A DNA stretch of 50,805 bases from Rhodanobacter sp. 7MK24 (GTDB lineage: Bacteria; Pseudomonadota; Gammaproteobacteria; Xanthomonadales; Rhodanobacteraceae), in assembly GCF_014842995.1 (NCBI RefSeq), contig NZ_JACYXL010000016.1:1-50805 (forward strand), read 5' to 3'. The notes beneath the pieces are model-generated. The model ran no database searches. It was not told where the DNA came from and saw nothing but the letters and a program-made list of their open reading frames with translations. A program made the translations under genes and the position numbers. Shown here one piece after another: positions 45,734 through 50,805 of this stretch (positions within the stretch are counted from its first letter, which is position 1; each line of letters starts with the position of its first letter).

Positions 45734-46379
45734 AGCACTCTCCCGTCACTAGGACGACGCAGGTAAATAGTGCGATTTCGCGCATCCACGGATCTTCGAC
45801 GCATAAACCCCCTGATCACTGTACCGGCATCAATGCTTGGATATTCCAGATTCTGGTCAACCCTGACGACAGCCACTCGCGCTATCAACTCAAAACTGCC
45901 AGTAGCAGTTCCTTTGGCGAAGCGGGTGCTCGCGGGCAGCTCTCCCTCACGCTTCATGTTGTTGAGTTTGATTGAGCCGGGTAAGCTGAACCAGAACGCT
46001 TACATTGAATCGTTCAACGGGCGTCTGTGCAACGAGCTGCCTCAGCTGTGTGTTCAACCTGATGCGGCGATGGTTACGCCATCTGTAACGAAACCACCGG
46101 GCAGCTCGCGCCATTCTTCAAGGACAAGATGTGACACTCGGCAGCTGCGATGGAACGCCAGCTGTCGCTCGCCGCAATGGAGGCGATGAGCTGACTTTGG
46201 CCAAGGGATAGCTTTCGGCAAAGCACAACGTAAAAGCGAACCGATTAGCCCGTGTTATCGGGGGTAGGGGGCAACCTGAAGCGATCGAAGGGACCACAGG
46301 GCAGCGTTAACCCGTTGCCTTCGCGAAGCAGGGTTGCTGTCAGCTAGGATTGAGCGTGACCACAGGGGAGTTGGAGTGC
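45734..46379. other. Junction between stress block and defence-like operon
   Basis: About 645 bases with a transposase fragment (45956-46060) and otherwise broken frames. A broken frame after the fragment reads YAICNETTGQLAPFFKD in another phase. The stretch looks like scar tissue from insertion events. No RNA gene seen. It should hold the promoter of the PLD-ATPase-HNH operon. Confidence 0.5.
45956..46060 (+). pseudogene. IS3-family transposase remnant
   Basis: IEPGKLNQNAYIESFNGRL followed by CNELPQ is the catalytic-glutamate block of an IS3 OrfB (usually IEPGKPNQNAxxESFNGxxRDE). Only about 30 residues survive, without the rest of the DDE domain. It marks an old insertion at the left edge of the defence-like operon. 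Confidence 0.8.
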
Positions 46380-47540
46380 ATGAGTGACCTAATTTTGCTT
46401 CCGAAAGCGGAAGCAAAGAGTCTGGAGGAGCACTACAAGCGTGCTTTCAAGTGCTCAGTAGAGCTATACATTCTCTCCGCATATCTCACCGAATGGTGTC
46501 CACCGTCCAAGCTTAGTACTGCCTGCGTCACCTTCCGTATGATCATCGGAAAGGACTATGGAATTACTCGAAAAAAAGCTTGTCGCGACGTAACTCGCTG
46601 GCTACCCCGGGAGAAGAAGAGCTGCTTTCTCGTAGCTCAGCGCATCGGCGGATTCCACCCTAAAGCCATGTTTTGGAGGGAAGCCGATGGAAGTTTGCAT
46701 GCTCTGGTTGGCTCTTCGAATTTAACGCGTGCTGCGTTCTCGACCAATTACGAGGCAAATTTCTATCACCACCTCAAGAAAGAACAATTCAACGAAGCGC
46801 GGAACTGGGTCGAACGCATCTCAGGTGATTGCATTGACGCCGATGAAAATTGGTTGAAGACCTATCGGGAAGCCCCAAATGGTGGCCCGACCAACTCCAA
46901 GGGCAAGACCGCGTCAGAAGAGTTCGACGAGGCGCTGACGTTGCCGAGCCCCGCCGACGCGAGACGTTTGGTGAGGCAGCGTCGCAAGCAAATACAAGAG
47001 TATCAGCTACGTAAAGCCGGCCTTGTCCAGCTTTTTAAACAGTGCGCCAACGGAAAGATAAGCTCTGCTGAGTTCTATGAGAAGCTCCCCTTGCATTGGG
47101 GCCATAAGTGGAAGAATCGCCTTCAAGGCGCCGGGTGGGAACGGTCGGGCAGCACGGGTGATTTTAAAGCTCTGAGCCAAGCGTTCCTGGCCATACTTCA
47201 GGCATCCGATACGGAACGTGATGATGTCGTGGTTACGAAGATTGACGAGCTGCATGCCAGGAAGGTGGCGGCTCGAGGCGCGTTCCTTTCGGAAATGCTG
47301 TGCTTGGCTTTCCCTTCGCTTTATCCCGTCAAGAACGATCCCATTCGGAAGTTTATGAAGGCGATCGACTTCAGGGTTACGCGCGGAGCATCCGAGGGCG
47401 CCTCCTATCTTTCCCTTGCCCGATTGTTGCGGGCTGCCGTCCAGGCGGATCGACGTGGCCCTGCCAAAAACCTCGCTGAGCTGGATGCATTACTTTGGCG
47501 TACTTACGGGAGGAGCTCTGGTGACCTCTACCAAATCTAG
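46380..47540 (+). CDS. PLD-like (HKD) nuclease-family protein
   Basis: 386 aa. One PLD motif: FHPKAMFW (HxK) followed by ALVGSSNLTRAAF and NYEAN, as in PLD-type restriction and defence nucleases. The HKD aspartate is not obvious in the classic place. The N-terminal half (LEEHYKRAFKCSVELYILSAYLTEW) fits the first strand/helix of the fold. The C-terminal part is a basic helical region. The ATG at 46380 with GGGG-AG upstream is chosen over a TTG at 46350. First gene of the defence-like operon, overlapping the 51-aa gene by 20 bases. Confidence 0.75.
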   Translation: MSDLILLPKAEAKSLEEHYKRAFKCSVELYILSAYLTEWCPPSKLSTACVTFRMIIGKDYGITRKKACRDVTRWLPREKKSCFLVAQRIGGFHPKAMFWREADGSLHALVGSSNLTRAAFSTNYEANFYHHLKKEQFNEARNWVERISGDCIDADENWLKTYREAPNGGPTNSKGKTASEEFDEALTLPSPADARRLVRQRRKQIQEYQLRKAGLVQLFKQCANGKISSAEFYEKLPLHWGHKWKNRLQGAGWERSGSTGDFKALSQAFLAILQASDTERDDVVVTKIDELHARKVAARGAFLSEMLCLAFPSLYPVKNDPIRKFMKAIDFRVTRGASEGASYLSLARLLRAAVQADRRGPAKNLAELDALLWRTYGRSSGDLYQI

Positions 47541-47676
47541 GGGCGCTATAGGGCGAAGGAGGCAGGCCGGATTTACGGACGCACGCCCAGGTGAGGCCAA
47601 GGCGATTGATGATCCGGAGCTTCGGCGCAGAATCAGCAAATTTTTGCTATCGGCCGACCCTTACGACGCACGTTGA
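47521..47676 (+). CDS. 51-aa protein between PLD and ATPase genes
   Basis: From GTG at 47521 with a near-perfect GGGAGGAG ribosome site that lies inside the end of the PLD gene. Basic N-terminus (TSTKSRGAIGRRRQAGF) and helical C-terminus (DDPELRRRISKFLLSADPYD). Not recognised. The overlap plus strong site argue it is translated as part of the operon; a small regulator, antitoxin-like or bridging protein are options. Confidence 0.6.
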   Translation: MTSTKSRGAIGRRRQAGFTDARPGEAKAIDDPELRRRISKFLLSADPYDAR

Positions 47677-47694
47677 CGTTTCAAAGGAGGAAAT

Positions 47695-49227
47695 GTGTTC
47701 TTTACCATCCTAGGTGCAGGGGTACGCCCACCCGCGGACGCTCCCGCCAATTCTGCCTACCTCAGGACTGACTATTGGGATGACTGGGGCAAGTACCGCA
47801 CCATGTTTACGCTGGTCGTCGTTGACGACCGCGGCCTGGTGCAAGAAATTGGCTCAGTCAAAATTGGCGAAGTTGGCCTGAAGCCTTCGCGCACCGCCGC
47901 CGAAGGGGAGCGTGCACCGTCGCTGCTGCCCACCTTTGATCGATTGGACGACCGCTTCTTTTCTGTTGGACAGGGCGAAGACTACTACGCCACCTTGAAT
48001 CAATTGGCTCCGACCCTGCGCCAACGTGTGTTGGAAGGCCTGAATGACTGCGCCTTCAATCTTTTGATCTTTGACGCCCATCTCGACGAATACGTGATGG
48101 GCGAATCGCTGTTGCGTGACGTGCGAGCCGCGAACGTACGAGGCCGCCTCAATCGGCTGTCGCGTGGTGATGCCCAACTCACCGAATTTCGATTCAACTA
48201 CACGTTACCGCACCCGGCCGACGTGCCTACCGCGACGCTCACTTTCGAGGTGGTTCCGGAGTCACACCCTCCGACCAATGTGCATGTCCTGATTGGACGC
48301 AACGGTGTGGGAAAGACGCGATGCATGCGGCAACTGGCACTGGCTCTGCTGGGGCGCCAAGCGCCGGAGGGCGAGTCGTATGGTGAGATCGCGCTGCTCG
48401 ACGAAGGGTGGGCATTCGCCGGCGTCATCCTTATTTCATTCAGCGCCTTCGACTCTTTTGACCTGAAAGGCGATTCCGATGATCGCCTGACCGCCCATCA
48501 AGTCGGCTTGCGCCACCATGTGGAAGGGCAAGGCGCAGTGGCCGGCATTGCGGATGCGCTCACGCTCGCGCAGGATTTTCGGCAAAGCTTTGAGCGCTGT
48601 CGAGTGGGCCTAAAGGCTGAGCGTTGGCGCGCGGCCCTTCTGACCCTCGAAGTCGATGATCTTTTTCGCGATCTCAACGTCGCGGTGCTGCTGGAAATCG
48701 AGGAAGAAGAGCGGCGCAGGATCGAAGCTGAGGCGCTCTTTAGGCGGCTGAGCTCGGGACACGCCATCGTGTTGTTGACCGTGACTCGGCTGGTCGAGTT
48801 GGTCGATGAAAAGACGCTCGTTCTCTTGGATGAACCCGAGGGGCACCTCCATCCCCCGCTGTTATCCGCCTTCATTCGCTGCCTTTCGGACCTTCTCGTC
48901 AAGCGTAATGGCGTCGCCATCGTCGCCACCCATTCGCCGGTCGTTCTGCAGGAAGTGCCTCGCTCAGCAGCTTGGAAGCTCCGCCGCGCGCGTGCCGTCT
49001 CGGTGGTCGAACGTCCAACCCTCGAAACGTTCGGTGAAAGCATAGGACTGCTTACGCGTGACGTCTTTGGTCTGGAAGTCACCCGCTCGGGCTTCCACCA
49101 AATGCTCCAAGCAGCGGTCGACCAGAACCTCGACTACGACGCGATCGTCCGCCGGTTCAACAGCCAGCTCGGCGCGGAAGCTCGTTCCATCGTCCGTGCA
49201 TTGGTCGCTGAACGCGACGAGGAATGA
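47695..49227 (+). CDS. ABC/SMC-type AAA ATPase, PtuA-like
   Basis: 510 aa from a GTG next to AAAGGAGG. A unique N-terminal part (about 1-195) precedes the ATPase core: Walker A GRNGVGKTR near residue 203, a signature-like FRRLSSGHAIVLL, Walker B TLVLLDEPEGHLHP, and the ATHSPVVLQEV switch His. This is the OLD/PtuA-type nucleotide-binding head found in Septu, Gabija-like and retron-linked defence systems. Without a fused TOPRIM domain, it most resembles PtuA. It is followed three bases later by an HNH nuclease gene, the Septu arrangement. Confidence 0.8.
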   Translation: MFFTILGAGVRPPADAPANSAYLRTDYWDDWGKYRTMFTLVVVDDRGLVQEIGSVKIGEVGLKPSRTAAEGERAPSLLPTFDRLDDRFFSVGQGEDYYATLNQLAPTLRQRVLEGLNDCAFNLLIFDAHLDEYVMGESLLRDVRAANVRGRLNRLSRGDAQLTEFRFNYTLPHPADVPTATLTFEVVPESHPPTNVHVLIGRNGVGKTRCMRQLALALLGRQAPEGESYGEIALLDEGWAFAGVILISFSAFDSFDLKGDSDDRLTAHQVGLRHHVEGQGAVAGIADALTLAQDFRQSFERCRVGLKAERWRAALLTLEVDDLFRDLNVAVLLEIEEEERRRIEAEALFRRLSSGHAIVLLTVTRLVELVDEKTLVLLDEPEGHLHPPLLSAFIRCLSDLLVKRNGVAIVATHSPVVLQEVPRSAAWKLRRARAVSVVERPTLETFGESIGLLTRDVFGLEVTRSGFHQMLQAAVDQNLDYDAIVRRFNSQLGAEARSIVRALVAERDEE

Positions 49228-49230
49228 TCG

Positions 49231-50070
49231 ATGCGCCGACTTCCATGCCCTACGGTCACCGCCAAAGAGATTCTCGACCTCTGCATTGAGAGCATTCAGG
49301 ACTCATCGCTGAAGAATCGCCTGCAAAATGTGACTCCGCTCATCGAAACGGCAGAACAGAACTACGTGTCCAAAGGTGCGCTTGGGACCTTGCACGACAT
49401 CGCCGGTACCAGCGACGTCGGAGGTGAGGTCACCACGGCAGAGATGAAGCGTGTCTACAACGGCACCTTCGTTAAGAGTAAGCGCACCCGCAATATCTAC
49501 GACACCATCAAAAAGGCTCCGGAGAACGATACCTGTCCGTTGTGCGGACAGCGGACCGTGTCCACGCTGGATCACTATCTCCCGCAGACAAATCACCCCT
49601 TCCTCGTCACCACGGCTCCAAACCTGGTACCCGCATGCGCGGAATGCAACTTCATCAAACGGGCGCAGGAAGCGGCAAGCCAAGAGGAGCAAACCCTCCA
49701 TCCGTACTTCGATGTCGTGGAGGCGGACCGATGGCTGTTCGCAAAGGTGATCGAGAAGCGACCAGCAGCGCTCACATTTTCCGCGAATCCACCTAGGAAC
49801 TGGGGTGGGTTGGGACAGCGGATCGAAACTCACTTCCGCGTTTTTCAACTGGCGCCACTCTATGCATCGCATGCAGCCGTAGAAATCAACGATATTAGAT
49901 TCGCCTTGGAGCGCATTTTGCGCAGCGGCTCTGCCCAAACCGTTCGTGAGCACCTGGCGGAGCAAGCGCGGAGTCGAGCACAGGCGCAGATGAATTCGTG
50001 GCAGCGTGCTACCTATGAGGCGTTGGCCACGTCGGATTGGTTTTGCGAAGGCGGATTCCTTCCTGAGTAG
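49231..50070 (+). CDS. HNH endonuclease, PtuB-like
   Basis: 279 aa. CPLCGQRTVSTLDHYLP, then PNLVPACAECNFIKR, gives a zinc-supported HNH motif (CxxC, DH, N, CxxC) in the central part of the protein. The N-terminal 90 residues are helical and the C-terminal 110 are helical and basic. GAGGAATGATCG precedes the ATG. Downstream partner of the PtuA-like ATPase, giving a Septu-like pair in which PtuB supplies nuclease activity. Length is in the range of known PtuB proteins. Confidence 0.85.
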   Translation: MRRLPCPTVTAKEILDLCIESIQDSSLKNRLQNVTPLIETAEQNYVSKGALGTLHDIAGTSDVGGEVTTAEMKRVYNGTFVKSKRTRNIYDTIKKAPENDTCPLCGQRTVSTLDHYLPQTNHPFLVTTAPNLVPACAECNFIKRAQEAASQEEQTLHPYFDVVEADRWLFAKVIEKRPAALTFSANPPRNWGGLGQRIETHFRVFQLAPLYASHAAVEINDIRFALERILRSGSAQTVREHLAEQARSRAQAQMNSWQRATYEALATSDWFCEGGFLPE

Positions 50071-50141: not shown

Positions 50142-50405
50142 GTGAAGAAGCGCTTTTCCGAAGAACAGATCATCGGTTTCCTGCGTGAGGCGGACGCCGG
50201 CCAGCCGATCAAGGAGCTGTGCCGCAAGCACGGCTTCAGCGAGGCCTCCTACTACCTGTGGCGGAGCAAGTTCGGCGGCATGAGCGTGCCGGATGCCAAG
50301 CGCCCGAAGGAGCTGGAGACGGAGAACACGCGGCTGAAGAAGCTGCTGGCCGAGCAGATGCTTGAGAACGAGGTGATCCGGGACGTCCTGCGAAAAAAAC
50401 CGTAG
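50142..50405 (+). CDS. IS3-family OrfA (IS407-like)
   Basis: 87 aa from GTG at 50142 with AAGGAG upstream. The HTH part (SEEQIIGFLREADAGQPIKELCRKHGFSEASYYLWRSKFG) is followed by a leucine-zipper helix (LETENTRLKKLLAEQMLENEVIRDVL) used for dimerisation with OrfAB. Ends CGA AAA AAA CCG TAG, a -1 slippery site. The element is cut by the window edge. Confidence 0.9.
   Translation: MKKRFSEEQIIGFLREADAGQPIKELCRKHGFSEASYYLWRSKFGGMSVPDAKRPKELETENTRLKKLLAEQMLENEVIRDVLRKKP
50393..50399 (+). promoter_or_regulatory. -1 ribosomal frameshift slippery site
   Basis: A run of seven A residues (A-AAA-AAA) at the end of OrfA lets ribosomes move back one base into the OrfB frame, which continues without a stop. 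This is the standard way IS3 elements make the OrfAB transposase. Confidence 0.8.
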
Positions 50406-50805
50406 GCGCACCGGCCCGACGCGCGTTGGTGCGCCAGATGATCGACAAGGGGCTGAGCGAGCGGTGCTCGTTGCGTATCGTGGGCATGAGCGCCAGCGCG
50501 TACCGCTATCAGGCGCAGCCAGACCGCAACGTGGCGCTGCGGCGGCGGATCGTGGAGCTGGCGCAGCGACACAAGCGCTATGGCGTAGGGATGATCCACC
50601 TGAAGCTTCGGCAGGAGGGCAACGAGCCGGTGAACTACAAGCGTGTGGAGCGGCTGTATCGGGATGAGCGGCTGCAGGTGCGTCGGCGCAAGCGGAAGAA
50701 GGTGCCGGTGAGCGAGCGGCAACCGCTGGTCCGTCCATCGGCGCCCAACGAAGTGTGGTCGATGGATTTCGTGTTCGATTGCACCGCCGACGCCCGCGTC
50801 CTCAA
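50402..50805 (+). CDS. IS3-family OrfB transposase, N-terminal part
   Basis: In the -1 frame after OrfA: APARRALVRQMIDKGLSE, SLRIVGMSASAYRYQ, HKRYGVGMIHLKLRQEG (HTH_21) and, near the edge, EVWSMDFVFDCTADAR, which carries the first DDE aspartate. The gene runs off the right edge. Members of the same broad group left the fragment at 2-115, but identity of the two cannot be checked. Confidence 0.85.

Follow-up and report, generated by a model that had tools for sequence, protein, structure and literature searches.

The closest described relatives of the locus considered here are pairs of an ATPase and an HNH nuclease. In the Septu system of Escherichia coli B88, protection is lost when Walker A, Walker B, or H-N-H residues are mutated, and cleavage falls in the variable loop of tRNA-Tyr, according to PMC13096335. 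In retron type I-A, or Septu type II, a reverse transcriptase gene precedes ptuA, as a section of PMC8565338 describes. Two phage lambda genes, ea31 and ea59, are classed as non-essential in an excerpt of PMC10695390, and a survey of the Bacillus cereus group counts PDC-M01, a candidate system of the PADLOC collection, among unpublished candidates, with some loci called both Septu and PDC-M01 in the part of the survey consulted (PMC11811056). The locus analyzed here lies at positions 46380-50070 of a 50,805-nucleotide (nt) contig of Rhodanobacter sp. 7MK24 (NZ_JACYXL010000016.1), and this one whole contig is the window referred to below. A preliminary description had read four consecutive genes, encoding a phospholipase D (PLD)-type nuclease, a 51-amino-acid protein, a PtuA-like ATPase, and a PtuB-like HNH nuclease, as a four-component Septu variant. 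The four same-strand open reading frames (ORFs) were reproduced, with a 20-base overlap between the PLD gene and the 51-amino-acid ORF, an 18-base gap before the ATPase gene, and a 3-base gap between the ATPase and HNH genes. The locus very probably consists, though, of two independent modules lying side by side between IS3 sequences, i.e., an ordinary Ea59-Ea31-type pair and an unrelated PLD nuclease gene.

The ATPase gene (47695-49227, plus strand) encodes an ATP-binding cassette (ABC)/OLD-type protein with the motifs GRNGVGKT, LSSGH, LVLLDEPE, and ATHSP, and the HNH gene (49231-50070, plus strand) encodes a protein with two CxxC motifs (CPLC and CAEC) and a DH motif. PDC-M01 is the top PADLOC family for both proteins and matches both over nearly their full lengths (PDC-M01A, 1.4e-185 over residues 15-509 of 510; PDC-M01B, 4.7e-102 over residues 1-276 of 279). 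The ATPase also matches the PADLOC PtuA1 model PDLC00282 (1.2e-163), and the 25 PADLOC matches listed for the HNH protein, with 22 further families outside those listed, are all to PDC-M01B. Searching phage records with the ATPase led to lambda Ea59 (39% identity over residues 3-509), and the next lambda gene is ea31, annotated as an HNH endonuclease and lying in the same order as here, whose product is 27% identical to the window HNH protein (E value, 2e-32). Lambda Ea59 and Ea31 (L016:3992-6456) themselves match PDC-M01A (3.9e-201) and PDC-M01B (5.8e-113) strongly. In PHROGs, the ATPase matches phrog_8066 (function unknown; 1.2e-138), and the HNH protein matches phrog_10378 (HNH endonuclease; 1.6e-59). 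Because the PADLOC families, the homology to lambda and its gene order, and lambda's own matches agree, the pair is identified by homology as the Ea59-Ea31 type, which PADLOC already lists as candidate PDC-M01A/B and which overlaps Septu, and the earlier recognition of a Septu-like ATPase with an HNH nuclease is thus borne out. In the open-licence PubMed Central literature, judged from titles, no paper on Ea59 or Ea31 concerned a defense role of the pair, and the six papers sharing Ea59 and Septu appeared unrelated; the same literature mentions PDC-M01 by name in two papers and has nothing joining Septu, PtuA, and phospholipase D and nothing with the PADLOC candidate wording.

The genomic context of ATPase relatives was examined in 59 loci, comprising 38 loci from a viral-contig scan, an initial 9 from plasmids, phages, and viruses, another 8 from plasmids, and 4 stretches taken from whole genomes; the 14 plasmid loci in this set were chosen among 40 records listed of the 89 with a match. 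These loci were searched with profiles built from alignments of the ATPase, HNH, and PLD proteins. In 55 of the 59 loci, the ATPase gene is followed by an HNH gene in the same orientation, and in the other four (L090, L096, L097, and L105) the available sequence ends there. Clustering at 90% identity reduced the 59 loci to 49 clusters, 45 of them with the HNH gene. Wherever both genes are present, no more than 162 nt separate the ATPase and HNH profile matches, except in L022. In that Roseinatronobacter locus (L022:3953-7660), an IS3 family transposase gene lies between the two genes. A PLD-profile match was found in none of the 59 loci at an E threshold of 1e-3; in 52 of them the sequence extends 1.5 kb or more beyond the ATPase gene on its upstream side, the place that the PLD gene takes in the window. 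The upstream genes differ from locus to locus (e.g., icd, a gene for an ATP-binding protein, and one for a very short patch repair endonuclease). ATPase relatives occur in only one other genome of a 369-genome class sample (own genome included), and in 3 of 397 other genomes of a phylum sample. Plasmid records with an ATPase match number 89, and some appear to be lambda itself. Three of these, each about 48.5 kb long and named Stenotrophomonas, Paenibacillus, and Salmonella, score equally to lambda Ea59 and are about the size of lambda, and these may be lambda control DNA.

The reverse comparison used 35 loci with PLD relatives, i.e., 31 from one genome-contig scan plus a Neisseria locus (L003), a viral contig (L004), and two whole-genome loci (L013 and L014). 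The set is partly redundant, as L014 and L049, whose contigs are equally long, are apparently the same place and both L003 and L043 come from gonococci. Of the 31 genome loci, 29 (all but L037 and L050) extend 1 kb or more past the PLD gene on its downstream side. Neither the ATPase nor the HNH profile matched in 34 of the 35 loci, and the only signal in L051 was a pair of weak ATPase-profile matches (1e-4), both over 5 kb from the PLD gene. In a class sample of 369 genomes, near-full-length PLD relatives were found in 2 other genomes and weak partial matches in 5 more, and the PLD and ATPase genome lists overlap only in the window's own genome. Other collections contributed one plasmid record, one viral contig, and one weak match among 98 relatives, and no PLD relative was found in phage records. 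Since no PLD-profile match was found in the 59 ATPase loci and the 35 PLD loci show no convincing Ea59- or Ea31-type gene, the four-component Septu variant is rejected on genomic context. A search for the same four-gene order elsewhere had been proposed beforehand, and it goes against the system: the PLD gene was not found in the 59 ATPase loci, and the small ORF has no convincing relative.

Several observations weigh against two independent modules. The PLD stop codon and the ATPase start are separated by 154 nt, and a simple scan of this interval for promoter-like sites was negative on that strand, which would fit one transcript; coupling of the PLD gene to the pair in this strain is possible. 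Shared transcription is likewise possible, though it is not needed for two modules to stand side by side. Searches with tblastn returned short, weak ATPase matches in PLD loci L026, L036, L050, and L051 (0.059 to 5.6e-6) and an HNH match in L056 (0.082), none adjoining the PLD gene; these look like other P-loop proteins or chance. A phage test of either the pair or the PLD family was not met in the open-licence PubMed Central literature.

Given the homology, the pairing, and the motifs described above, the pair should work in a Septu-like manner, and we infer its trigger, its target, and the resulting protection along the following lines. The ABC-type ATPase would sense, or be triggered by, infection and then license the HNH subunit, which would cut nucleic acid, so that phage growth would stop, perhaps at a cost to the cell. 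The target may be nicked phage DNA or tRNA, as in the Septu and retron pairs that have been studied. Homology alone does not carry the cleavage target over to the Ea59-Ea31 type, for which we propose an ATPase-gated nuclease. A different role is conceivable if unlikely, namely, that Ea59-Ea31-type pairs are nuclease modules serving their mobile element through homing, exclusion of a competing element, or DNA processing rather than through defense. The occurrence of the ATPase in lambda, in the 38 viral-contig loci of one scan, and in the 89 plasmid records (some apparently lambda) would fit such a role, as would the non-essential status of ea31 and ea59 in lambda (excerpt of PMC10695390). The matches to the PtuA model and to PDC-M01, a candidate called together with Septu at some loci (PMC11811056, the part consulted), argue instead for defense. 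Defense genes, too, are commonly carried by prophages.

The PLD gene (46380-47540, plus strand) encodes a 386-amino-acid protein with a single HKD motif, here HPK at residue 93 followed by GSSN at residue 111, in an N-terminal half that resembles SauUSI and NgoFVII. All 29 aligned family members match RE_NgoFVII and PLDc_2 at an E value of 0.01 or better, and the window protein alone falls slightly below the Pfam cut-offs (23.3 versus 23.8 bits and 25.5 versus 27 bits). The PADLOC model for type IV methyl-directed restriction endonucleases matches 24 of the 29, and the family profile finds PDB entry 7clg at 7.3e-12, listed as a putative helicase of 953 amino acids, which we take to be SauUSI. 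Residues H93, K95, N114, and E125 are invariant in all 29 members and presumably catalytic, as in BfiI-type enzymes. The protein is thus predicted to be a nuclease with one HKD motif, akin to the PLD portion of SauUSI and NgoFVII. Enzymes with one HKD motif are generally known to form dimers and to cleave without metal, and, in view of the relationship to SauUSI and NgoFVII, two subunits of the window protein would probably dimerize into one active site and cut foreign DNA. For the C-terminal half, searches of Pfam, PADLOC, NCBIfam, PHROGs, and PDB sequences yielded no credible match, and the libraries searched contained no full-length model for the family, which is the least described part of the locus.

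The surroundings of PLD relatives bear on whether this gene once had partners of another kind. Among its neighbors (101 of the 103 called genes of at least 100 amino acids, from 28 of the 31 loci, were scanned), no Pfam family was found in more than four. The PADLOC matches among them, as seen in the 25 of 58 families listed, include type I restriction, BrxC, a PglX/type IIG/DrmMI group, and Tmn, each matched by a single member and some perhaps by the same one. The neighbor scans with Pfam and PADLOC therefore place the PLD gene without a conserved partner and at times among defense genes. In Neisseria gonorrhoeae, the relative (L003:7962-9125; also L043) is a single gene between respiratory-complex genes, which we take to be nuoL and nuoM; the L003 record is labeled a plasmid, though at 2.17 Mb it is probably a chromosome. 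In the viral contig L004 and in Pseudomonas lactis (L048), the relative has neighboring ORFs that, on visual inspection, look like genes of filamentous phages (secretin-like and assembly-ATPase-like). It is improbable that the window PLD gene is left over from a restriction-modification or Azaca-type system that decayed, losing its other genes at the IS3 remnant: the NgoFVII-type N-terminal half and a weak match to ZacB (1.5e-7) would suit such a history, and the lack of a Pfam family exceeding four occurrences beside 28 PLD relatives and the solitary gonococcal gene speak against it. We propose tentatively, and with rather less than even confidence, that the PLD protein represents an uncatalogued single-gene antiphage nuclease family, with one HKD motif, a conserved but unmatched C-terminal half, and a sparse distribution across Proteobacteria and a small number of further phyla, and that lambda Ea59-Ea31 is at the same time a prophage-borne Septu-type defense.

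The 51-amino-acid ORF (47521-47676, plus strand, GTG start) is most likely spurious. It has no family match in PADLOC, Pfam, NCBIfam, or PHROGs and no match in plasmids or phages at E values up to 1. Among 274 class genomes (own genome included), 18 gave a match at an E value of 0.1 or better; the best in the 273 other genomes (0.0075) covers 26 residues inside a 212-amino-acid open frame, and the best in its own genome besides itself (0.0049) lies inside a 933-amino-acid frame. We count these matches as weak because so many genomes were tried. The guanine-plus-cytosine (GC) content by codon position is flat (0.58/0.60/0.56), compared with a second-position GC content of 0.42 to 0.52 in nine other genes tested, and dinucleotide shuffling of the 154-nt gap produced an ORF of at least 51 amino acids ending at that place in 1138 of 2000 trials. 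In favor of a gene, the frame is open upstream to an 86-amino-acid ORF with a TTG start, which is as long as shuffling gave in only 84 of 2000 trials, and a Shine-Dalgarno-like stretch, GGGAGGAG, was seen by eye before the GTG, so that translation is possible. With no convincing relative, no codon periodicity, and a length common in shuffles, the 51-amino-acid protein is rejected as a conserved component, and its listing as a gene was not confirmed. A true three- or four-component system, in which the PLD protein would serve the Septu-like pair as an additional effector and the small protein would be a regulator, is highly improbable: the common strand, the tight spacing, and the lack of a promoter-like site between the genes on that strand would suit it, but none of the 59 ATPase loci has the PLD gene, 34 of the 35 PLD loci give no ATPase or HNH profile match (the last gives weak distant pieces only), and the small ORF looks like chance.

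IS3 sequences flank the locus on both sides, as the preliminary description had it. On the left is a transposase remnant (45770-46189, plus strand; rve_3 at 2.4e-6), and on the right are transposase ORFs with HTH_Tnp_1 and HTH_21 matches (50142-50805, plus strand). The right border is the end of the contig, which falls inside this repeated insertion sequence (IS), 735 bases past the HNH gene, and the same genome has seven further stretches that match the right-hand IS. The left flank was compared with 17 related genomes (own genome included) and gave a partial match in 9 of them and a whole-length match only in its own genome; it is therefore uninformative on the time of the island's arrival.

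Overall, a false new four-gene system is struck off, and the pair is firmly identified as the lambda Ea59-Ea31 type overlapping Septu. This raises the questions of whether the dispensable ea59-ea31 genes of lambda protect its lysogens and whether the PLD family is itself a defense gene.

Compared with described systems, the PLD protein shares with SauUSI and NgoFVII a PLD domain with the conserved HxK, N, and E residues, and we keep this domain relationship while rejecting membership. A SauUSI-like type IV methyl-directed enzyme has its PLD fused to a helicase, whereas the window protein has 386 amino acids, PLD-type Pfam matches only, and no helicase match; as for an NgoFVII-like type II restriction-modification system, no methyltransferase was found among the window neighbors scanned, on a contig that ends 735 bases after the HNH gene. 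Membership in Azaca, the system to which we take ZacB to belong, is also rejected, as the ZacB match covers 103 of 586 profile positions (28.7 bits). Retron type I-A is rejected for the pair, with a PLD gene preceding the ATPase gene and no reverse transcriptase family matched in a scan of 10 other proteins of the window. With Septu type I (PtuA plus PtuB), the pair shares the ABC-type ATPase, the HNH nuclease, and the PtuA1 match; it differs in that the NCBIfam PtuA equivalog scores the window ATPase at 34.8 bits against a cut-off of 500, the solved retron PtuA matches at 2.9e-8 over 86 positions only, and the solved PtuB matches weakly (E value of 0.087 or worse over 45 positions). With PDC-M01, it shares both top matches and an HNH gene directly after the ATPase gene, the one difference being that a PLD gene happens to sit upstream in the window. 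From lambda ea59-ea31 it differs in that the lambda genes overlap by 4 nt, as against the 3-nt gap here, and in the lack of a PLD match in the lambda stretch examined, whereas the two genes, their order, and their near-full-length homology are the same. The window pair is an ordinary further member of this known two-gene kind, lying beside an independent PLD gene.

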